Source of the DNA: Verrucomicrobiales bacterium
Lineage (GTDB): Bacteria > Verrucomicrobiota > Verrucomicrobiia > Verrucomicrobiales > DEV007
Assembly: GCA_022361255.1 (NCBI GenBank)
Contig: JAKSBG010000193.1
Coordinates: 1-45,842 of the forward strand
Length of the DNA: 45,842 nt
Direction of reading: 5' to 3'
Part shown: one piece after another, positions 28,724 to 38,612 of the stretch
Position numbering within the stretch: the first letter of the stretch is position 1
Layout: each line of letters begins with the position of its first letter
Position numbers and translations under genes: made by a program
The notes under the pieces: model-generated
What the model saw: only the letters and a program-made list of their open reading frames with translations
What the model was told of the DNA's origin: nothing
Databases searched by the model: none

Positions 28724-29278
28724 ATGTACGGACTTGTGAACAAAGCAGTAGAAGATCTCGTCGTTTCCAATTTTGGTGAAGATAAATGGGAGGCCATTAA
28801 GAAACGGGCAGGAGTGGAGGAGGAAGTGTTTATCAGCAATGAAAGCTATCCTGATGACCTCACCTATGACCTCGTCGGAGCGGCTTCTGAAATTCTTGAA
28901 ACGCCTGCCGAGAGTATTCTGATTGCTTTCGGTGAACACTGGGTCCTGAAAACGGCAAGTGAGAGTTACGGCTCGATGATGAAAGCCGGTGGACGTTCTC
29001 TGAAGGAATTTCTCGTGAATCTGCCAAACTTTCACACGCGGGTCTCCATGATCTATCCGGATCTCAAGCCCCCGCGTTTCGAGTGCGTCGACGTTGGCGA
29101 GGACTGCCTCGAACTGCGTTACTATACTCATCGCCCCGGCCTCACTAATTTCGTGGTTGGTCTGGTTCAGGGCCTGGGCAAATACTACGACACACCGGCC
29201 ACCTGCGAGTTGATCGAAAATCGTGAGGAGAACGGTGAATGTGACCGCTTTCAGGTTAAATGGCAGGCTGAGTCGTGA
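28724..29278 (+). CDS. H-NOX heme nitric-oxide-binding sensor protein
   Basis: 184 residues, the usual length of stand-alone bacterial H-NOX proteins. The N terminus [20 protein letters not shown] is diagnostic. His104 in [18 protein letters not shown] is the proximal heme ligand, Pro116 the conserved heme-distorting proline, and Tyr133-x-Thr135-x-Arg137 the heme-propionate clasp (consensus Y-x-S-x-R, Ser replaced by Thr). The following helix [13 protein letters not shown] has no Tyr where O2-binding members have one, which favours NO over O2 as ligand (inference). Family members bind NO and then inhibit or activate a partner kinase or cyclase. Its TGA overlaps the GTG start of the HNOBA hybrid kinase, the expected partner. 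The gene heads the plus-strand arm of the polysaccharide locus. Confidence 0.95.
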
Positions 29279-32200
29279 TTACAGAACCGTCAGTGTCTGC
29301 ACAGGAAGGCTTGTCAGCGGACGAGTTTGCAGCAGTGTTTCCATTCTACTTCGCCTGGGATGATTCCGGTGAAATCCTCGATTGGGGGAAATCTCTGGAG
29401 AAGACATGCGGTAACCTACGCCCGAACTGTCGTGTCTCTGATATCTTCAAACTGATCCGGCCGGAAGGCACTTTCGAGGACCTGGGGGTTGAGGCATCCT
29501 CCGACCTCCTCTTCCTTTTTGAACATCGGGACAGTGGAACCAAATTCCGCGGGCAAGTGATATCCCGTCCCGGAGAATCGAGAAATCTGATGCTCTGCTC
29601 CCCCTGGCTCCAGAGCAGTGACGAGTTGGATCGCCTGGGAATTACTTTTGGAGACTTTGCCATTCATGACCCGTCGCTGGATTTGCTTCAACTGGTGCAG
29701 ACGCAGCAAATGGCGAATTCGGATCTGCAGAAACTGGCAGACCGGTTGACTGCGAGTCGCGCTGACCTGAAAGCGCGGGAGGAAGAGTCCCGGAAACTGG
29801 CGTTGGTTGCATCAAGAACCGACAACGCGGTTGTGATGACGGACAGCAGCGGAAACATTGAGTGGGTCAATGACGGTTTTTCGCGGATGACCGGGTGGAC
29901 GCTCGACGAGGTGGAAGGAAAATCCCCCGGGAGTTTCCTTCAGGGGCCGGGGACCGACAGGGAAACGGTCGAGTATATGAGTCAGCAGCTTTCGGCCGGA
30001 AAAGGATTCACTTCAGAAATCCTGAACTACCACAAGATGGGGCGTCCATACTGGGTCTCTCTGGAGGTGCAGCCCATTTTCGGTGAGGGCGGGGAAATTA
30101 CGAATTTCATGGCGATCGAAACCGATATCACGCAGAGAAAGCGGGACGAAACCCGGCGTGAGGTGCAGTTGGACGTATCGCGGGTTTTGAACGGCGATGG
30201 AAGTCGCACGGAAACTTCAGGAAGAATTCTCGCGGCTATTGGTGAGCGGCTTGGCTGGTGTGTCGGGAGTGCCTGGTTGCTGAATGAAGAAACGCGAACT
30301 CTCCAACTCATTCAGACCTATCTCGATGAGACGAGCGAGAATCAGGCAGCATTGAAGCAATTTCTGAAGACTTCATCAGAATATCAGTTTCACATCGGGG
30401 TGGGCTTGCCGGGGCAGGTTTGGGAGGCCGGCGAAACCCGTTGGGTCGAGAACCTGCATGAAGTCTCAAAATGCTGTCCACGCGCGGCAGCCGGCTATGA
30501 AGCCGGATTAGGTGGTGTCCTCGCGTTTCCGATTTTGCAGGGCGGCCAGGTCCTGGGAGTTTTCGAATTTTTCTGGGGATACAATGATCCCATCGATGAC
30601 TTTTTCCCGCGTGTTCTTACCGGTATCGGGGCTCAGATCGGGCAGTTTTTTGCAAGAAAGGAAGTCGAGTACGATGTTCTTGCCGCCAAAGAGCAGGCCG
30701 AATCAGCAAACCGGGCAAAAGGAGAGTTCCTTGCCACAATGAGTCACGAGATTCGCACGCCGATGAACGGAATTATTGGTATGGCGTCTCTGTTACTGGA
30801 TTCCGAGATGAAGGGAGCCCAGCAGGAGATGGCTTCGTCGATTCTTTCAAGCGGTGAAGCACTTATAACAATAATCGATGACATTCTCGATTTCTCCAAG
30901 ATTGAGGCGAGAAGGCTCGAAATTGTGAGTGAGGTGTTCTCTTTGGACGCGGTAATAGACGGTATCGTCGATCTGCTCTATCACAAAGTTCAGGAGAAAG
31001 GTCTCGAAATGAGTGTTGTTATAGAGCCGGGAGTGCCCTCATCCATCGTGGGGGATTCGGGCCGCCTTCGTCAAATCGTTTTGAATCTGCTTGGAAACGC
31101 AATCAAGTTTACGGACGAGGGAGAGGTTAACATCTTTGTTAGATGTGCCCCTGACAACCGGGGCGAGCGAATTGAGATTGTGGTTGAGGACACCGGGATC
31201 GGGATGAACCGGGACCAGTTGAATCGCCTGTTTCGACCATTTTCACAAGTCGATGGATCGTCCACTCGCCGCTACGGCGGGACCGGATTGGGCCTCGCAA
31301 TTTCCAAACGTCTCGCGGAATTGATGGGCGGAAGAATCAGCGTGACCAGCGAACCGCAGAGAGGTTCGGTGTTTTCCCTGGTGCTGCCGACGGGAAATGC
31401 CACCAGCGAGAGTGAGCCGGTTTTGCCGTCGGAGATTCGCGGGAAACGGGTGCTCATTGCTGACGAAGTTTCTCTTTCCCGGCATGCTGCGGTTCTGGCA
31501 CTGGCCGGCACAGAGTATCCTCCGCTCGCGGTTGCGAGTGATCGGGAAGCGATTCACGAACTCAAAATGAGGCGGGGGCAATGGGATGTTCTGCTAATCA
31601 GCAGTCGTCTTTTCGGAGATGGGATCTCCGATGTTTTGAAGGAAATGGACGAATCATCGACTCGTCCCCGTGTTATACTTATGGGCCAGTTTACAGATTC
31701 GATGAGGGATCGGGCGGTTCTGAATAAGGAAGACACCCTCCTCTACAAACCCCTCCGGCGCCGGATGCTCTTTGAGGCGATGATGCGGGGCACCTCCCCG
31801 GAAAAAGCGGAGGTTGAGACAAAGAAGCAACGTCTCATTGCCGATGAACTGCCGCACATACTCATCGTGGAAGACAACGAGGTGAATGCACGGGTGGCCA
31901 TTATGCATCTCGAGAAATTGAGCTTTCCGTATGAGCACGCTCCGAACGGAGCGGAGGCAGTCGAACGTTTTCGCAAGGGAGTATATGATGGAATTCTTAT
32001 GGATTGTCATATGCCGGTGATGGACGGCTACGAGGCGACAGGAGCGATACGCGAGATCGAATCAGATGAAACATGGTCGCGTCCACCGATTCGTATTATA
32101 GCGATGACAGCGAATGCCATGGCCGGTGAGCGCGAGCGGTGCCTGGATGCGGGAATGGATGACTATCTTTCAAAGCCCCTGCGATCTAACGATTTGCTGG

Positions 32201-32646
32201 AAGCTCTGTCTTTGATTCAACCCGCCGGGTTTCCTGAGAACCCGGCAGCCGGGTCTTCAAACATTTCGGGAAAAGAGGAGGATCCCGGAGTGGAGGATTC
32301 TGCACGGGTGGCTGTGATGCGACTTGCAGAGGAGTTGGACCGGGATTCGGCGATGCAGTTGATTGATAGATGGATCGAGGACACACCTCTACGTCTCGAT
32401 GAGATTGATGAGGTCGCCGGTGGGGAAAACCAAAAGGAGTTGAAACGCCTCGCCCATTCTCTGAAAGGGGGCAGTGCTCTCTTCGGGCTGGATACCTTTC
32501 ATCAACTTTGTTACCAGCTTGAAAGGATGGCGGAGGATGAGGAAATTCCCGGGCAGGTTTCCCTGGCTGCATCAGTCCGAAGTGAATTCGCGCTCGCGAA
32601 ATCTCAATTGAAAACCCTGCATTCGGAGCTGGAGAAAAATTCATGA
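29275..32646 (+). CDS. HNOBA-PAS-GAF hybrid histidine kinase with two receivers and Hpt domain
   Basis: 1,123 residues from a GTG that overlaps the H-NOX stop (GTGA). Order: HNOBA domain about 15-135 ([59 protein letters not shown]) as in soluble guanylate cyclase; coiled coil to about 170; PAS about 175-290; GAF about 295-455; HisKA with His491 ([11 protein letters not shown]); HATPase with Asn608 and [19 protein letters not shown]; receiver 1 about 720-840, in which Ser776 replaces the phospho-acceptor Asp; receiver 2 with Asp910 ([15 protein letters not shown]); Hpt with His1061 ([13 protein letters not shown]). No transmembrane helix, so cytoplasmic, as H-NOX is. Expected function: NO-bound H-NOX alters autophosphorylation and a His491-Asp910-His1061 relay passes phosphate to a separate receiver. 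Candidates are the STAS-receiver protein (35952) and the NarL regulator (14976). The stop overlaps the next glycosyltransferase start. Confidence 0.95.
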
Positions 32647-33827
32647 AGTTGCTGTACGTGCACGAACGGTTCGGTGCTCTTGCCGGTGCGGAGGCCAATG
32701 CTTTTATCACTGCGGAGCAACTCGGAAAAAGAGGACATGAAATCGGCATTCTTCATGGCCCGGGGACCGGGAAAAATGAGGAAGGTTGGAGGGAAGTGTT
32801 TCCGAATGCCTATTCGATTGATGCGGATTCAGTAGCCTCGACGAATCGGGCAATCGAGGAATTTTCGCCGGATGCTATCTACGTTCACAAGATGGCCGAT
32901 CTCGATGTGATTGAAGCTCTTGTTTCCAGTGGTCGGCCGCTGGTTCGCATGGTTCACGATCATGATATCTACTGCATGCGCAGCTACAAATACAACGTGT
33001 TCACCCGGAAGATCTGCACGCGTCCGGCAACATGGTATTGTCCCACTGTGTGTGGAGCGTGTGTAGTTCGGAATCGTGACGGGGGATTTCCGTTGCAGTA
33101 TGTCAGCTACGCGGAAAAGAAACGTGAAATTGCCCTGAACCGCGAGTTTGACCGGATGGTGGTCGTGACGCGCTACATGAGAGACGAGTTGCTGCGGAAC
33201 GGGTTTCATCCGGAACGGATTGAGATTCACGCGCCGGTTCCGAGGATGGGAGAAGAGGGGCTTCGCAGCAAATTCAGTGAGCGAAACCTCATTATTTACG
33301 CAGGGCAGATCATTCGGGGCAAAGGGGTGGACGTGCTTCTCGAATCCCTTGCCCGCGTGAAGAATGACTTTGAGTGCATTATTCTCGGAGACGGGAATCA
33401 CAAAGAGCACTGCGAAAATTTGAGCAAAAAACTGGGTCTCTCTGACCGGGTTCACTTTCGGGGATTTGTCCCCCAGGAGGAGCTGAAGAGTTTTTATCGA
33501 GATTGCAGTGTTGTGGCGCTCAGTTCGCTCTGGCCGGAACCGATCGCAACGATTGGACTGGAAGTGATGCGCTACGCTCTCCCGGTTGTGGCTTTTGACG
33601 CAGGGGGAATCAAGGACTGGCTGGAGGACGGTCACAACGGCTATCTCGTTCCCTGGATGGATCGCGATGCATTCGCGGGGAGAATCGATGAACTTCTCGA
33701 GGACAAGGCGAAGGCCAGAGAGATGGGGGAGAAAGGCTTCGAGCTAGTCAGTGAGCGATACGATTTCGACGGTTACATCGGCGATCTCGAGAAAATGTTT
33801 ACCGGAGTTTCTTCGGAGACAAAGTGA
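32643..33827 (+). CDS. Glycosyltransferase family 4 protein with cysteine cluster
   Basis: 394 residues; its ATG overlaps the kinase stop (ATGA), which ties signalling and glycan genes into one transcript. N terminus [20 protein letters not shown]; donor domain from about 217 ([20 protein letters not shown]) with [20 protein letters not shown] (EX7E) and [17 protein letters not shown]. Between the halves, [15 protein letters not shown] is followed by a Cys-rich stretch: Cys111, Cys125, Cys133, Cys137 and Cys140. This insertion is known in a GT4 subgroup and may bind a metal or form disulphides, though the enzyme should be cytoplasmic. A GC-rich palindrome lies just after the stop. Sugar specificity unknown. 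Confidence 0.92.
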
Positions 33828-33883: not shown

Positions 33884-34633
33884 ATGAACACCACTCCAAC
33901 TTTTTCCCGAAAGTCCTACCGTCAGCTCAGACGATCTGTGAGCCCGGTTGGTAGACTCCTCCTGGATTCCTTGTTTTTCTTTCGCCGCATTTCCTGGTGG
34001 TCAGTGAATCGCGGGAGAAGGTTGGCCAAACGTGGTTTCGATCTCGTCGCGGCAACGATCGTTCTACTGATGAACGCTCCGTTGATGGTGTTTGTGTCGC
34101 TTTTGATTCGTCGCGACGGTGGGCCGGTTCTTTTCCGTCAAACCCGGGTAGGGCTCCACGGCGAAGAGTTTCAGATGTGGAAATTCCGGTCCATGTGTGT
34201 TGACGCGGAGGATCGGCTCGCGGCTCTTCTCGAGCAAAACGAGAAAGACGGCGGAGTCACATTCAAGATGGCGAATGATCCGCGCATCACTCCGATTGGA
34301 CGGTTTATCCGGCGGACTTCAATTGATGAACTTCCTCAGTTGTTCAACGTCCTGCTTGGTGACATGTCCATCGTGGGACCTCGCCCTCCGGTTCCACGGG
34401 AGGTTTCCCTCTACGGCGTGGACGACAGACGACGATTTCTCGCCAAGCCCGGCTTGACCTGTCTCTGGCAGATCGGTGAGCGGGACGGACGGCTTTTTGA
34501 GGTCTCGGATCGCAACACGATCGATTTTGGAGAGCAGGTCCAGCTCGACGTTGACTACATCGAAAGACAAAACCTTTGGCAGGATATTCGAATCGTTCTC
34601 AAAACGCCTCCCGCCATGCTCCTTGGTAAGTGA
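33884..34633 (+). CDS. Undecaprenyl-phosphate sugar-1-phosphate transferase (bacterial sugar transferase)
   Basis: 249 residues from the ATG at 33884; an in-frame ATG at 33854 lies inside a repeat and is less likely. After a basic N terminus, KRGFDLVAATIVLLMNAPLM (re-entrant hairpin) opens the bacterial sugar transferase domain, with GGPVLFRQTRVGLHGEEFQM, WKFRSMCVDAE (the Asp-Glu catalytic pair), ITPIGRFIRRTSIDELPQLF, NVLLGDMSIVGPRPPVP and KPGLTCLWQIGER. Such monotopic enzymes start repeat-unit synthesis by moving a sugar phosphate from a UDP-sugar to undecaprenyl phosphate. The extra four-helix N-terminal part of WbaP/WcaJ is absent; this is a short, PglC-like core with a small leader. It is the priming enzyme of the locus. 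Confidence 0.92.
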   Translation: MNTTPTFSRKSYRQLRRSVSPVGRLLLDSLFFFRRISWWSVNRGRRLAKRGFDLVAATIVLLMNAPLMVFVSLLIRRDGGPVLFRQTRVGLHGEEFQMWKFRSMCVDAEDRLAALLEQNEKDGGVTFKMANDPRITPIGRFIRRTSIDELPQLFNVLLGDMSIVGPRPPVPREVSLYGVDDRRRFLAKPGLTCLWQIGERDGRLFEVSDRNTIDFGEQVQLDVDYIERQNLWQDIRIVLKTPPAMLLGK

Positions 34634-34653: not shown

Positions 34654-35952
34654 ATGAACGTCATTCTTTTGTGCCCGAACCAACTGCCGGCAGGGCGTCT
34701 TTTTCAAAAGCAGGCCCCCCTGGCCCTTGTCCCGCTTTTCGGGCGGTCAGCCCTGGATCGTGCATTGGAATCTCTCTCCCGTGAAGGAGCGGGCGAAGTG
34801 TTGGTTGTTTCCCCTGATCGTCCCGGGAAAATTCGTGCCGCCATTGAGTCGACCTCTTCCTGGGGACTGAAGATCGATTGTGTTGCGGCGGATCGGGAAC
34901 TTGATGTTGAGGAAGCGATTCTGAAGTATCACGGGGAATTTGAGTCGGATGCTGAAGTTGTCGTTCGTAAAGTAGAAGAATGCCTGAAGCCTCTCGCAGG
35001 TCTTCCGGGCCGGGTTCATTTCTCCAATCATCAGTTTTTCATCGACCGCTTAAAGGAAGGGTCGATGCCTGTACATTTGACGATACGTGAGAAAGCACCG
35101 GGAGTTTGGGTGAGCAGTCGTGCCAGCATACATCCCTCGGCTACCATCGAATCCCCTGTCTGGATCGGGCCTCATGTTCGTATCGGGCCGGACGTTCGGA
35201 TCGGAGCAGATTCCATTGTGGAAAACGGTAGCATTGTGGATCGCGGAGCACAGATTGAGGGGAGCTGGATCGGACCCGATACTTATGTCGGGCAAAGAAC
35301 TGAAATAGTGGATTCTCATGTCTGGGGTAACACGGTTTGCCGTTGGAAAGACGGAAGTTTCATTGAAATCGGTGACGACTTTATTCTTGCAGACTTGAAA
35401 CGGGACAATTGGGTTCCATCCGTCGGATGGCTGTCAAGAGTCCTTGCCGCCGGCCTGCTTTTCACAACAAGTCCTCTCTACGCATGGTGGAAAGTTTCCC
35501 GTTCCAAAGGAGAAGAGTTGTTCCGGTTCCGTCGCGTAGTTCTCCCCGAGGTGGGGAGCTCCCGTCTCCCCGATCGCACCGTTCCCCTGCGCACCCTTGA
35601 GGGGGTGGAGGGTCTTGCCTCCCGTTGGCTTGAGTTGCGGGAGGTAGTGCGCGGCCGAATGAGTCTGGTCGGAAATCGCCCTCTTACTCTTGACGCCATT
35701 TCCTGCCTCGGAGGATCCCGGGCCCGGAAGTGGATGGATCACCCTGCCGGCGTATTTTCGCTGGGCGATGCCGAGGGCGTCGACGGAAACGATCACGAAG
35801 TCTCGATCGCCTATTCACTCTGGTTCTCCAGTCACAATTCTCTCCGGATTCGGCTCTCGGTTTTGCGCCGCTGTCTCGTGAGGCTTGCGGGGGAAATTCT
35901 TTTCTCCGGGCACAACTCTTCAACACCTGAACCTGCATCCCAACAAACCTAA
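34654..35952 (+). CDS. Composite protein: nucleotidyltransferase-like, beta-helix and degenerate sugar-transferase domains
   Basis: 432 residues from the ATG at 34654. Residues 1-145 look like a sugar-nucleotidyltransferase Rossmann domain (VPLFGRSALDRALESLSREG, then VLVVSPDR), but the Gly-rich GxGTR signature is absent (VILLCPNQLPAGRLF), so catalysis is doubtful. Residues about 155-240 are a left-handed beta helix (IHPSATIESPVWIGPHVRIG). Residues about 285-420 resemble the C-terminal half of bacterial sugar transferases: RFRRVVLPEVGSSRLPDRTV, then LREVVRGRMSLVGNRPLT (cf. DMSIVGPRP), but without the WKFRSM/DE pair. It follows the priming transferase by 20 bases and abuts the STAS-receiver gene (TAATG). 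It may be a regulatory or scaffolding relative of the priming enzyme, possibly binding sugar nucleotides. Confidence 0.7.
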   Translation: MNVILLCPNQLPAGRLFQKQAPLALVPLFGRSALDRALESLSREGAGEVLVVSPDRPGKIRAAIESTSSWGLKIDCVAADRELDVEEAILKYHGEFESDAEVVVRKVEECLKPLAGLPGRVHFSNHQFFIDRLKEGSMPVHLTIREKAPGVWVSSRASIHPSATIESPVWIGPHVRIGPDVRIGADSIVENGSIVDRGAQIEGSWIGPDTYVGQRTEIVDSHVWGNTVCRWKDGSFIEIGDDFILADLKRDNWVPSVGWLSRVLAAGLLFTTSPLYAWWKVSRSKGEELFRFRRVVLPEVGSSRLPDRTVPLRTLEGVEGLASRWLELREVVRGRMSLVGNRPLTLDAISCLGGSRARKWMDHPAGVFSLGDAEGVDGNDHEVSIAYSLWFSSHNSLRIRLSVLRRCLVRLAGEILFSGHNSSTPEPASQQT

Positions 35953-36656
35953 TGAATCCTATTCCTCTTACCGGGCCGTCCTCTCTGGAACGGCGCCTCG
36001 CAATCGGCTGGATCGCTGAAGTCAGAAAAAAACTTCGCGGGCGTAAAGGCCGTATCGAACTCGACCTGTCCGAAACACGCAACATCGATGCATCAGGAGT
36101 CGCTGCGCTTCTCGAACTCAACCGGTGGCACCGCGATTCCGGAATTAGGCTTCGAATATTTAATGCCTCTGCCGAAATTCTCCAGATTCTTGAGATCATG
36201 GGAGTACACCGGGAGTTCGAGTTCGCGAGCCGATTGTCTGGTGATTCTTCGAACCGGCGCGCTCCGCTTCTGATTGTTGAGGACGAACTGATTATTCAGA
36301 GCGTTACCAGCATGGTATTGAAGCCTCTTGGACATCCTATCGTGATGGCAGACAACGGGATCGATGCTTTGTCGCTGGCAACGAGGGAAAAGCCGGGCTT
36401 GATCGTGCTGGACTACATGCTTCCACTCATGGATGGCGAGGAGGTTCTTCGAAGGCTGAAGCTTTCCGAGGATACCAGCGACATCCCGGTCATCGTGATG
36501 ACTGCCAATTCCATCGTGGCACTGGGGGATACAAGTCGCTTTCCGGAGGCTTCTGCTGTCTTTTCGAAACCGTTCCAGGCACGCGAATTTCGCAGAGAAG
36601 CAGCCCGGTTGATCTATGAATGTTCGAATTCGATTCAGGAGGAGGTGAGCGCATGA
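35952..36656 (+). CDS. STAS-receiver fusion protein
   Basis: 234 residues. Residues about 10-95 form a STAS (anti-sigma-factor antagonist) domain, with LDLSETRNIDASGVAALLEL carrying Ser48 at the usual phosphorylation site. Residues about 105-222 form a receiver domain with Glu110/Asp111, Asp154 (LIVLDYMLPLMDG), Thr184 and Lys206 intact. No DNA-binding or enzymatic output is present, so output probably goes through binding of a partner such as an anti-sigma or switch protein, with two inputs (Ser phosphorylation, Asp phosphorylation). The start overlaps the preceding stop by one base and its stop overlaps the next ATG (ATGA). It is the nearest free receiver domain to the H-NOX-linked kinase and a likely phosphorelay target (inference). 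Confidence 0.9.
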   Translation: MNPIPLTGPSSLERRLAIGWIAEVRKKLRGRKGRIELDLSETRNIDASGVAALLELNRWHRDSGIRLRIFNASAEILQILEIMGVHREFEFASRLSGDSSNRRAPLLIVEDELIIQSVTSMVLKPLGHPIVMADNGIDALSLATREKPGLIVLDYMLPLMDGEEVLRRLKLSEDTSDIPVIVMTANSIVALGDTSRFPEASAVFSKPFQAREFRREAARLIYECSNSIQEEVSA

Positions 36657-37879
36657 AATCTTCGTCTGTTTCCCTCTTCCTGATGGTGGATGCCTGCGGT
36701 TGGGAGATTATCAAGGATCAACCGTTTCTACAGAAAGTAGCTCCGCACCGCCATAAACTGAGGAGTGTCTTCGGTTACAGTTCGGCATGTGTGCCAAGCA
36801 TCGTCTCGGGAAACTGGCCTGATCAGCACGAGAACTGGTGTTACTTCATTTTCGATCCCGAAAATTCACCGTTCCGCAGTTTGCGATGGCTCCGGTTTCT
36901 TCCGAAAAAATTGACCGGAAGGCGTATCGTTCGTCGTCTTCTCACGAAGATTGCAAAATGGAAGCTGGGTTTCGAGGGATATTTCGATCTCTACAACATT
37001 CCGTTTCAGCACATTCACCTCTACGATTTTACGGAGAAAAAAAGCCCGTTGCGTCCCGGCGGCATGAATTGCGGAACAAATATTTTCGACGTTTTGCAGG
37101 AAAGAAACGTTCCCCATTTCGGGTCAAATCCTGATGTCACAGAAGAAGAGAATCTCAGCGCGGTCCTTTCAGAGCTGAAGGAAGGGGAGATTGAGTTCGC
37201 ATTCGTCTACTGGGCCGGCCTCGACGGGTTGCTGCACCGTGTCGGCAATGATGCCCCGGAAATTCCGGAAAAACTCGAGCACTATGAATCGTGGATTCGC
37301 GAGGTGTATGATACGGCGAGCCGTAGTTACGAAAATGTCGATTTGTATGTTTTCAGTGACCACGGCATGGCGAACTGCGACAAGCATCTTGATCTTGCTG
37401 CTTTGATCGAGACGCTTCCCCTTCAATTTGGTCGCGACTACAATGTGGTTTATGACAGCACGATGGCCCGCTTCTGGTTTTCAAGCGACGAGGCGAGAGA
37501 GCTGATTGCCGCTCGTCTCGAGTCAGTGGAAGACGGCCGAATTCTGACGAACGCGGAGCTTCGAGAATTGCGCGTGCCGGTAGAGAAAGACCGTTTCGGC
37601 GAACTGATATTCCTCGCCAGTGAGGGGGTTCTCATTGTTCCCAGTCACATGGGCGAGCGTCCCATTCGGGCAATGCATGGCTACCATCCCGATGACCCGC
37701 AGAGTTACGCGGCTTTGCTCACGAATGTCCCGGCACTTCCCTGTGAGGTCGAGGCGATTCCGCATATCCATCGTCTCATGTTGGATTCGATCAATGGGAC
37801 AGGGATGAACAAAATTTCAAAAACAAACCAATATGATGACAGCAACAGAAAAGCTGGCCTCGAGGCCATCGCGCAATAG
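36653..37879 (+). CDS. Alkaline-phosphatase-superfamily phosphodiesterase/sulfatase-like protein
   Basis: 408 residues from the ATG at 36653, preceded by GGAGGAGG. The superfamily pattern is visible: first metal ligand Asp13 (FLMVDACGW), a nucleophile region VFGYSSACVPSIVSG (Ser43, Ser44 and Cys46 are candidates), a metal-ligand pair WAGLDGLLHRVGND near 195-208, VFSDHGM near 239-245 and MHGYHPDDPQ near 342. The pattern fits type I phosphodiesterase/nucleotide pyrophosphatase-like proteins encoded in capsule clusters; the Cys-x-Pro-Ser element recalls sulfatases, but the following Arg is Ile and the motif is shorter. No signal peptide, so a cytoplasmic role: transfer or removal of a phospho-substituent on the glycan or lipid intermediate. 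The stop lies 47 bases inside the FkbM gene. Confidence 0.85.
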   Translation: MKSSSVSLFLMVDACGWEIIKDQPFLQKVAPHRHKLRSVFGYSSACVPSIVSGNWPDQHENWCYFIFDPENSPFRSLRWLRFLPKKLTGRRIVRRLLTKIAKWKLGFEGYFDLYNIPFQHIHLYDFTEKKSPLRPGGMNCGTNIFDVLQERNVPHFGSNPDVTEEENLSAVLSELKEGEIEFAFVYWAGLDGLLHRVGNDAPEIPEKLEHYESWIREVYDTASRSYENVDLYVFSDHGMANCDKHLDLAALIETLPLQFGRDYNVVYDSTMARFWFSSDEARELIAARLESVEDGRILTNAELRELRVPVEKDRFGELIFLASEGVLIVPSHMGERPIRAMHGYHPDDPQSYAALLTNVPALPCEVEAIPHIHRLMLDSINGTGMNKISKTNQYDDSNRKAGLEAIAQ

Positions 37880-38612
37880 TTTCCCGGCAGGATTAACAGA
37901 TGCCTGGAAGGAACTACTGATTCGGATCCGGTTCCGCTTTTATCTGCCGCGAGTTCGACGGGCTCAGCTGGCAGGGGTGAAACTCGAAATGGAGGGACTC
38001 TCTCCGATGATGAAGAACATCATCCTGTCCGGACGATATGAATATCAGGAGAGGATACTTTGCGCAGAGGCAATAGGCTCCGACGATGTGGTTTTGGAAC
38101 TGGGAAGTGCGATCGGATTTGTGGGCCTCTATTGCCGGAAGAAACTGGGGGTTAAGTCTGTCTATGGGGTAGAGGCAAATCCTCAAACGATACAATTGCT
38201 CAACAGGAACTATGCGGCCAACGATTGCGATCCCCGAATCATTCATGCAGCCGTCGCTGCCGAAGATGGCGAAATTGAACTCGATACGAGCGGTGAGTTC
38301 TGGGAAAACAGGGTTGGGCAGGCTGGTGGAAAATCGGTTAAAGTTCCGTCCCGAAAGTTGTCCTCTATTCTTGAACAGTTGGAGGAATCACCCACTGCGC
38401 TGGTTTGCGATATCGAAGGAGCGGAAACGCAGTTGGATTTCTCATCTCTCCCTGCATCCGTCCGAACAATTGTGATGGAGCTTCACCCGGAATGGACGGG
38501 GCAGGAAGCGGCTGCTGCGACAGAAAAGCGGATGGAGGACGAAGGATTTGTTGTGGTAAAAAGGCTCGATAACTCCGTCCTTCTCACCAGAAACCCCAAA
38601 TCTGATTCCTGA
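37833..38612 (+). CDS. FkbM-family methyltransferase
   Basis: 259 residues. The SAM-binding fold has VVLELGSAIGFVGLYCRKKL (motif I) near 89-108, VYGVEANPQTIQLLNRNYAA, VAAEDGEIEL, and LVCDIEGAETQLDFSS near 190-205, which is the FkbM signature region. Members methylate hydroxyl groups, often of sugars in glycans. The first of two adjacent ATGs (37833, 37836) is used, giving a 47-base overlap with the phosphodiesterase-like gene; a later start is not supported since the N-terminal basic helix appears in frame without a break. It is the last gene of the plus-strand arm and converges with the antiporter gene with only eight bases between stops. Confidence 0.9.
   Translation: MMTATEKLASRPSRNSFPAGLTDAWKELLIRIRFRFYLPRVRRAQLAGVKLEMEGLSPMMKNIILSGRYEYQERILCAEAIGSDDVVLELGSAIGFVGLYCRKKLGVKSVYGVEANPQTIQLLNRNYAANDCDPRIIHAAVAAEDGEIELDTSGEFWENRVGQAGGKSVKVPSRKLSSILEQLEESPTALVCDIEGAETQLDFSSLPASVRTIVMELHPEWTGQEAAAATEKRMEDEGFVVVKRLDNSVLLTRNPKSDS

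Follow-up and report, generated by a model that had tools for sequence, protein, structure and literature searches.

The gene that directly follows an intact priming transferase (PGT) in a stretch of 45,842 nucleotides from a Verrucomicrobiales bacterium (contig JAKSBG010000193.1; hereafter the window) codes for a protein with a degenerate PGT domain of its own, which we call the partner. Because members of its family are almost always encoded directly after a priming PGT, and usually beside a signalling switch, the partner probably belongs to a previously undescribed system of on/off control of slime production in this group. In our reading, which we hold with moderate confidence and infer from the anatomy of the protein and the linkage of its gene, the PGT encoded at 33884-34633 has the partner as a subunit that regulates or scaffolds without catalysing, and phosphorylation signalling via a STAS protein switches the initiation of polysaccharide synthesis. 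Priming by PGTs is the first step in the synthesis of exported polysaccharides and uses a limited lipid carrier, and its post-translational control is known in only a few cases (PMC12802240). If our reading is right, a dead PGT serving as a dedicated subunit next to a STAS switch would amount to a new principle of control. The place of the STAS-receiver protein in this system and the conservation of the arrangement across the phylum are new with respect to a preliminary description of the partner gene.

The gene lies in a row, all on the forward strand and with short gaps or overlaps, that runs from an H-NOX protein and a hybrid histidine kinase through a family 4 glycosyltransferase (GT4), the PGT, the partner and a STAS-receiver fusion to a phosphodiesterase-like protein and an FkbM-type methyltransferase (Table 1). 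The PGT and partner genes are separated by 20 nt, and the stop codon of the partner gene overlaps the start of the STAS-receiver gene at 35952. A second possible start for the partner is a GTG at 34630; the ATG at 34654 agrees with the PGT-partner spacing of 22-28 nt in three close orthologues. The loci L032 and L033 share the gene order of the window, and L031, L035 and L036 share part of it; the H-NOX and hybrid kinase genes are conserved in L032, L033 and L036, and the PF01663 phosphodiesterase-like protein shows 62-72% identity in L031-L036. The presence of an H-NOX protein and its associated kinase in a PGT row suggests a nitric-oxide-responsive control of the polysaccharide.

Table 1. 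Features of the window and, in the last six lines, short variants of the partner in other loci (positions of the respective locus)
Feature	Position	Strand	Evidence or remarks
H-NOX (haem NO-binding) protein, opening the row	28724..29278	+	PF07700, E 2.2e-49
Hybrid histidine kinase: HNOBA, PAS, GAF, HisKA, HATPase, receiver, Hpt	29275..32646	+	
Glycosyltransferase family 4	32643..33827	+	66-79% identical in L032, L033, L035, L036
Intact small monotopic PGT (priming transferase), Asp148-Glu149	33884..34633	+	PF02397, E 2e-63
Partner protein, 432 aa: pseudo-NTase, LbH, pseudo-PGT	34654..35952	+	
Domain 1, residues 1-115: N-terminal half of NTase fold, G-loop absent	34654..34998	+	TIGR01208, hhalign, PDB profiles
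Domain 2, about residues 146-235: left-handed beta-helix, hexapeptide repeats	35089..35358	+	PF00132
Domain 3, about residues 250-411: degenerate monotopic PGT domain, full-length	35401..35886	+	Pfam, hhalign, PDB profile
Hydrophobic stretch aligned with PGT re-entrant membrane helix	35425..35508	+	Pro274 is the Pro of DX12P, Ser261 stands for its Asp
Ser323-Arg324 replacing the catalytic Asp-Glu	35620..35625	+	alignment
RMSLVGNRPL, residues 335-344, matching DMSIVGPRP of PGTs	35656..35685	+	
STAS-receiver fusion	35952..36656	+	PF01740 34.5 bits (cut-off 22.6), PF00072 59.5 bits
Type I phosphodiesterase/nucleotide pyrophosphatase-like protein	36653..37879	+	PF01663, 64 bits
FkbM-type methyltransferase	37833..38612	+	also in L031, L032, L033
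Short variant, L010	920-1639		
Short variant, L011	1240-1953		
Short variant, L084	2823-3539		
Short variant, L085	2694-3461		
Short variant, L086	913-1608		
Short variant, L194	2170-2880		

The partner family occurs across its phylum: a search of 56 related genomes recovered full-length homologues of 26-45% identity from several families of the order, and with a profile of seven sequences (A1), matches at E <= 1e-15 were obtained in 55 of the 386 order genomes and in 72 of the 387 phylum genomes, two sets that overlap. The family is sparse in the genus of the window, with strong matches in 3/33 same-genus genomes, its own included, and a contig scan yielded a single relative, L031, from a Verrucomicrobiales MAG. 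Outside the phylum, only three partial Streptomyces NTase-LbH matches were obtained from the plasmid collection, and no second full-length partner was found in the window's own genome. For the partner counts given below, 108 distinct members were aligned after the removal of fragments and short variants, partner ORFs of <330 aa or <60 bits being left out (the split gene of G055, the fragments L062, L065, L083 and L089, and the variants L010, L011, L084, L085 and L086); further profile-matched genomes (G142, G152, G191, G214, G507, G652, G689 and G697) are not part of this count. By inspection the members were grouped into a window-order clade, to which the window partner belongs (25 members), a third clade (27) and a deep clade (56). 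The short variants, of about 231-255 aa, consist only of the pseudo-NTase and the LbH domains and each adjoin a PGT; judging from them, the dead PGT domain may have been gained or lost as a module. At L034 (3876-5117, G055) an in-frame TAG splits the partner gene, which is possibly a pseudogene or an assembly error.

The first domain is related to the nucleotidyltransferases (NTases). Positions 21-100 of the NCBIfam RmlA model TIGR01208 align with partner residues 22-101, and a profile-profile comparison with NTases in hhalign gave 95.3%, the match corresponding to the N-terminal half of the NTases; five sequences were taken as NTases for this figure, one of which (the second entry of L168) probably falls outside the NTases, and a rerun with four looked alike. 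Over the NTase part, profile A1 matches eIF2B epsilon (5b04_I) and GMPPB (7d72) in the PDB, and its best solved relatives for the NTase-LbH part are eIF2B epsilon (3-164), nucleotidyl transferase family proteins and GMPP subunits. The GGxGxR nucleotide loop is found in none of the 108 aligned members, and the window partner lacks the catalytic lysine of NTases, having PL in the place of PK. An identity as an active NTase was rejected on the residue counts (GGxGxR 0/108). The second domain, a left-handed beta-helix (LbH) whose hexapeptide repeats were detected at residues 163-195 by Pfam (PF00132, E 2.6e-11), resembles the sugar acyltransferase models LpxD, LpxA and NeuD. It has no conserved catalytic histidine in the alignment, the best histidine column being filled in 32 of the 108 members, and an identity as an LbH acyltransferase was rejected, since the repeats are present but this column never rises above that number. 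An AlphaFold model of the partner, for which only two sequences served as input, was unusable (pLDDT 40.2, pTM 0.27).

In the window itself, the third domain scores 22.3 bits against Bac_transf (PF02397), below the cut-off of 27, with residues 328-407 matched on positions 94-173 of the 179 in the model; the orthologous domains of G044, G164 and G121 exceed the cut-off with 39, 37.9 and 35.2 bits. A PDB profile search with A1 recovered PglC as the best solved relative of this domain (298-423; E 3.8e-5), and hhalign aligned it with 105 PGT domains at 98.2% (E 4.7e-14, 150 columns), spanning columns 48-235 of 240 and beginning at the re-entrant membrane helix. All 108 rows were offered for this comparison, those under half-filled being excluded, and of the PGT set two domains come from partner-less loci of the window's own genome (L115, L117) and five adjoin the variants L010, L011, L084, L085 and L086. 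The control pairs, namely domain 1 or LbH with PGT and domain 3 with NTase or LbH, gave 0.05-3.9%.

In PglC numbering, the residues that mark monotopic PGTs (monoPGTs) are those of the DX12P motif, the dyad D93-E94, K59, R88, R111 and D168, with K59, R88 and R111 orienting the substrate (PMC12802240). The equivalents of K59, R88, D93, E94, R111 and D168 are each conserved in 105/105 PGT domains of the fetched loci. Among the partners, the catalytic Glu occurs in 0/108, its position being held by Arg in 72 and Lys in 17; the dyad Asp is kept in 44, of which 41 are among the 56 deep members; an R111-type Arg is present in 19, the window partner included; the R88-type position is Val318 in the window and is not a conserved Arg across the partners; and the stretch that holds the PglC-Lys59-type lysine is a gap in the partner alignment. 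Domain 3 is homologous to PglC and WbaP (PF02397) over its whole length and retains the re-entrant-helix Pro in 25/25 of the window's clade. Unlike these enzymes, the partners are without the catalytic Glu, mostly without the Asp, and without an aligned K59-type lysine or a conserved R88-type Arg, and their PGT domain is fused behind the NTase and LbH domains. The most conserved residues of the partners, Gly340 (105/108), Gly172 (99/108) and Gly334 (99/108), look structural. An identity as an active PGT was rejected on the residue counts (catalytic Glu 0/108), and an apparent SxDExP in L097 was discounted, as it is located past the aligned motif, after the GNRPL-equivalent. At residue 324 (35623-35625 of the window), the position of the catalytic Glu, 89/108 members have Arg or Lys; this striking and conserved reversal of charge may be functional in its own right.

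These results bear on several claims of the preliminary description. It had read 34654-35952 as coding for a protein of three domains, the first of them without a nucleotide-binding loop: the ORF is intact and its coordinates are correct, the architecture is recovered by Pfam, NCBIfam and hhalign of the domain profiles, and the loop is missing in all members (GGxGxR 0/108). The comparison with PglC that it had suggested did reveal the PGT homology of domain 3 (8e37_B, E 3.8e-5; hhalign 98.2%), and its equation of RMSLVGNRPL with DMSIVGPRP agrees with the alignment. Its statement that domain 3 lacks the Asp-Glu region stands as to the catalytic residues, but the region itself has been substituted (IDELPQL to ASRWLEL) rather than lost. 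The inference of a pseudoenzyme now extends to the entire family, the Glu being gone in 108/108 partners and the full active site present in 105/105 PGT domains. At the level of sequence, we consider both this status and the pairing with the PGT to be established.

The clades differ in the part of domain 3 that aligns with the re-entrant membrane helix. The Pro of DX12P is present in 53/108 partners, including 25/25 of the window's clade, with the Asp mostly lost; that this segment inserts into the membrane is inferred from the sequence alone. A hydrophobic helix is kept in 24/25 members of the window-order clade and 55/56 of the deep clade, and in the third clade only 6/27 have a helix hydropathy of at least 1.6. 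As the hydrophobic helix is mostly gone there, a membrane-embedded pseudo-protomer cannot be universal.

The preliminary description had further placed the gene directly after an intact priming transferase, as borne out by the Bac_transf match of its neighbour (E 2e-63), and had proposed that the product binds or regulates the priming step, which gains support from the linkage and the adjoining switch genes, in the absence of interaction or activity data. A PGT is encoded directly upstream on the same strand in 104/108 partner loci, in some of them with a STAS gene between. Among the four exceptions, L120 ends at a contig edge, and L166, L167 and L168 have a partner without an adjacent PGT, with small PGTs elsewhere in those genomes. 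A single contig of G502 (L168, G502:C547) holds two genes for partner-like proteins: one has a STAS gene but no PGT at its side, and the other lies just before a small PGT, in the reverse gene order. The linked PGTs are small (103/104 ORFs <400 aa; median 248.5), and 29/30 control PGTs are 458-536 aa in length. The control loci, taken from relatives of G044 together with three loci of the window's own genome, were reduced from 33 to 30, as three proved to be partner or short-variant loci; they are few, comprise the best-scoring loci with mostly large PGTs, and are unmatched for size or depth. In addition to the linked enzyme, the window's own genome codes for three other intact PGTs. In a quick PGT tree, 29/30 controls group in a single clade (97% support) that excludes the partner-linked PGTs; the own-genome control L118 has a very long branch and does not join the control clade. 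The distances of PGTs and partners correlate (Spearman 0.60), a value that cannot separate co-evolution from shared ancestry, and the median p-distance is 0.80 for the partner versus 0.49 for the PGT.

STAS proteins, RsbW-like kinases and SpoIIE phosphatases are parts of a partner-switching system, in which the STAS phospho-switch is normally an anti-sigma antagonist. Within 1.5 kb of the partner, local profiles detected STAS genes at 74, SpoIIE at 56 and RsbW-like at 38 of the 108 loci; any of the three was present at 83/108 partner loci versus 0/30 control PGT loci. The 25/108 loci without a recognised switch gene in this range include several with short flanks, and the window, L031 and L032 were counted as negative because their STAS-receiver proteins, revealed by Pfam and BLAST, score below the local profile. 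At many deep loci a STAS protein of about 113 aa is encoded between the PGT and the partner, and elsewhere the STAS gene lies after the partner, before the PGT or divergently upstream; this varied position argues against the simple inheritance of one frozen order. L035 and L036 have the row PGT, partner, STAS, a protein combining RsbW-like kinase, GAF-like and SpoIIE phosphatase parts (assigned by eye and local profile), and then a receiver; L034 has a STAS protein and a SpoIIE-receiver protein, the latter confirmed by Pfam; and many deep loci code for a receiver-SpoIIE protein before the PGT. No RsbW or SpoIIE gene was found within 5 kb of the window partner, where a hybrid histidine kinase is encoded instead.

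The domain identities, the family-wide catalytic loss, the PGT-partner adjacency and the co-location with STAS, RsbW and SpoIIE genes are observed, and on them we base the following mechanism. The degenerate PGT domain, keeping the fold and the putatively membrane-inserted part, would take its place next to the active PGT as a pseudo-protomer; the LbH domain would set the oligomeric state; and the truncated NTase domain would serve as a surface for docking, by analogy with the NTase-LbH subunits that have a regulatory part in eIF2B and GMPP. GMPPA and eIF2B gamma/epsilon are NTase-LbH proteins that serve as regulatory subunits; their NTase domain is complete and a PGT domain is absent from them, and the partner has half an NTase domain plus a pseudo-PGT. 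The STAS protein is predicted to bind the PGT-partner complex and to turn initiation on or off, with the partner, directly or together with the PGT, as the putative contact point of the phospho-switch. In the relatives, the RsbW-like kinase and the SpoIIE phosphatase would set the phosphorylation state of the STAS protein; in the window, it would probably be set by the fused receiver, fed by the H-NOX/hybrid-kinase relay. The physical complex, the domain contacts, the sign of regulation and the feeding of the STAS-receiver by this relay are inferred, without interaction or activity data. The description of small monoPGTs as functional monomers (PMC12802240) counts against the subunit reading, as do the three loci with a partner and no adjacent PGT, the 25/108 loci without a recognised switch gene, the absence of RsbW and SpoIIE genes within 5 kb in the window and the sparseness of the family in the window's genus.

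LbH domains commonly trimerise, a property that would also suit a structural or chaperone-like assembly factor, which would stabilise the PGT or recruit the next glycosyltransferases, with the STAS and kinase genes acting elsewhere, for instance on transcription of the cluster. The adjacency of PGT and partner in 104/108 loci, the GT4 gene conserved just upstream in L032, L033, L035 and L036, and the 25/108 loci without recognised switch genes within 1.5 kb would fit such a role as well. We nevertheless regard it as unlikely, given the switch genes that stand beside the pair in 83/108 loci and in several arrangements, compared to 0/30 other PGT loci, and the STAS gene that lies between PGT and partner in a deep clade. 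It appears very unlikely that the partner keeps a catalysis of its own, such as an LbH acyltransferase activity on the nucleotide sugar used by the PGT: neither the resemblance of its LbH to sugar acyltransferases (the LpxD, LpxA and NeuD models) nor the fusions of small PGTs with sugar-modifying domains described in PMC12802240 outweighs a histidine column of at most 32/108, a G-loop in 0/108 and a PGT Glu in 0/108.

The presence of eIF2B epsilon and GMPP subunits among the best solved relatives of profile A1 could point to a metabolite sensor akin to GMPPA, binding a nucleotide sugar or product, with the STAS input secondary or absent; with the NTase half truncated and the nucleotide-binding loop absent throughout, we give this scarcely any weight. 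The high divergence of the partner (median p-distance 0.80, versus 0.49 for the PGT) and the gene split by an in-frame TAG in G055 are what one would expect of a decaying, functionless relic of a former NTase-LbH-PGT fusion enzyme, but this is hardly credible at all in view of the 108 counted members, whose reading frames are open for at least 330 aa, of the recurrence of this architecture and location in distant families and classes, and of the conservation of non-catalytic residues (Gly340 in 105/108, Gly172 and Gly334 in 99/108 each).

The reading of the partner as a PGT subunit under a STAS switch is made plausible by two known systems: EpsW directly activates the PGT EpsZ, and the STAS protein SypA belongs to a polysaccharide locus, the syp locus, for which we know of no pseudo-PGT partner. 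EpsW is a response regulator that activates EpsZ post-translationally in Myxococcus xanthus (PMC12802240). Like this pair, the window has a receiver domain, here on the second gene downstream of the PGT, and, as proposed here, a priming monoPGT that is controlled after translation by a signalling protein dependent on phosphorylation. As to the differences, EpsZ belongs to the large monoPGTs and EpsW consists of one receiver domain, and the window PGT is small with a dedicated dead partner; the EpsW-EpsZ pair has no pseudo-PGT subunit, and STAS is not mentioned in PMC12802240. In Vibrio fischeri, the STAS protein SypA of SypA-SypE is under kinase/phosphatase control in a polysaccharide locus (PMC4517449, PMC8256260), and its target is unknown (PMC8256260).

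No description of a module of PGT, dead-PGT partner and STAS was found in the literature, as covered by open-licence PMC papers. As a concrete and testable candidate, this module bears on the target of polysaccharide-locus STAS proteins such as SypA, and the same logic, if true, could supply the missing target of SypA-type proteins in other polysaccharide loci. More tentatively, and with rather less assurance than doubt, we suggest an undescribed class of glycan-initiation control across the phylum, in which one live and one dead PGT would be combined in a heteromeric priming enzyme and STAS would act directly on this complex and not on a sigma factor, the H-NOX relay of the window conferring a response to nitric oxide. 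H-NOX ORFs also directly follow the partner at two other loci, L094 and L097.
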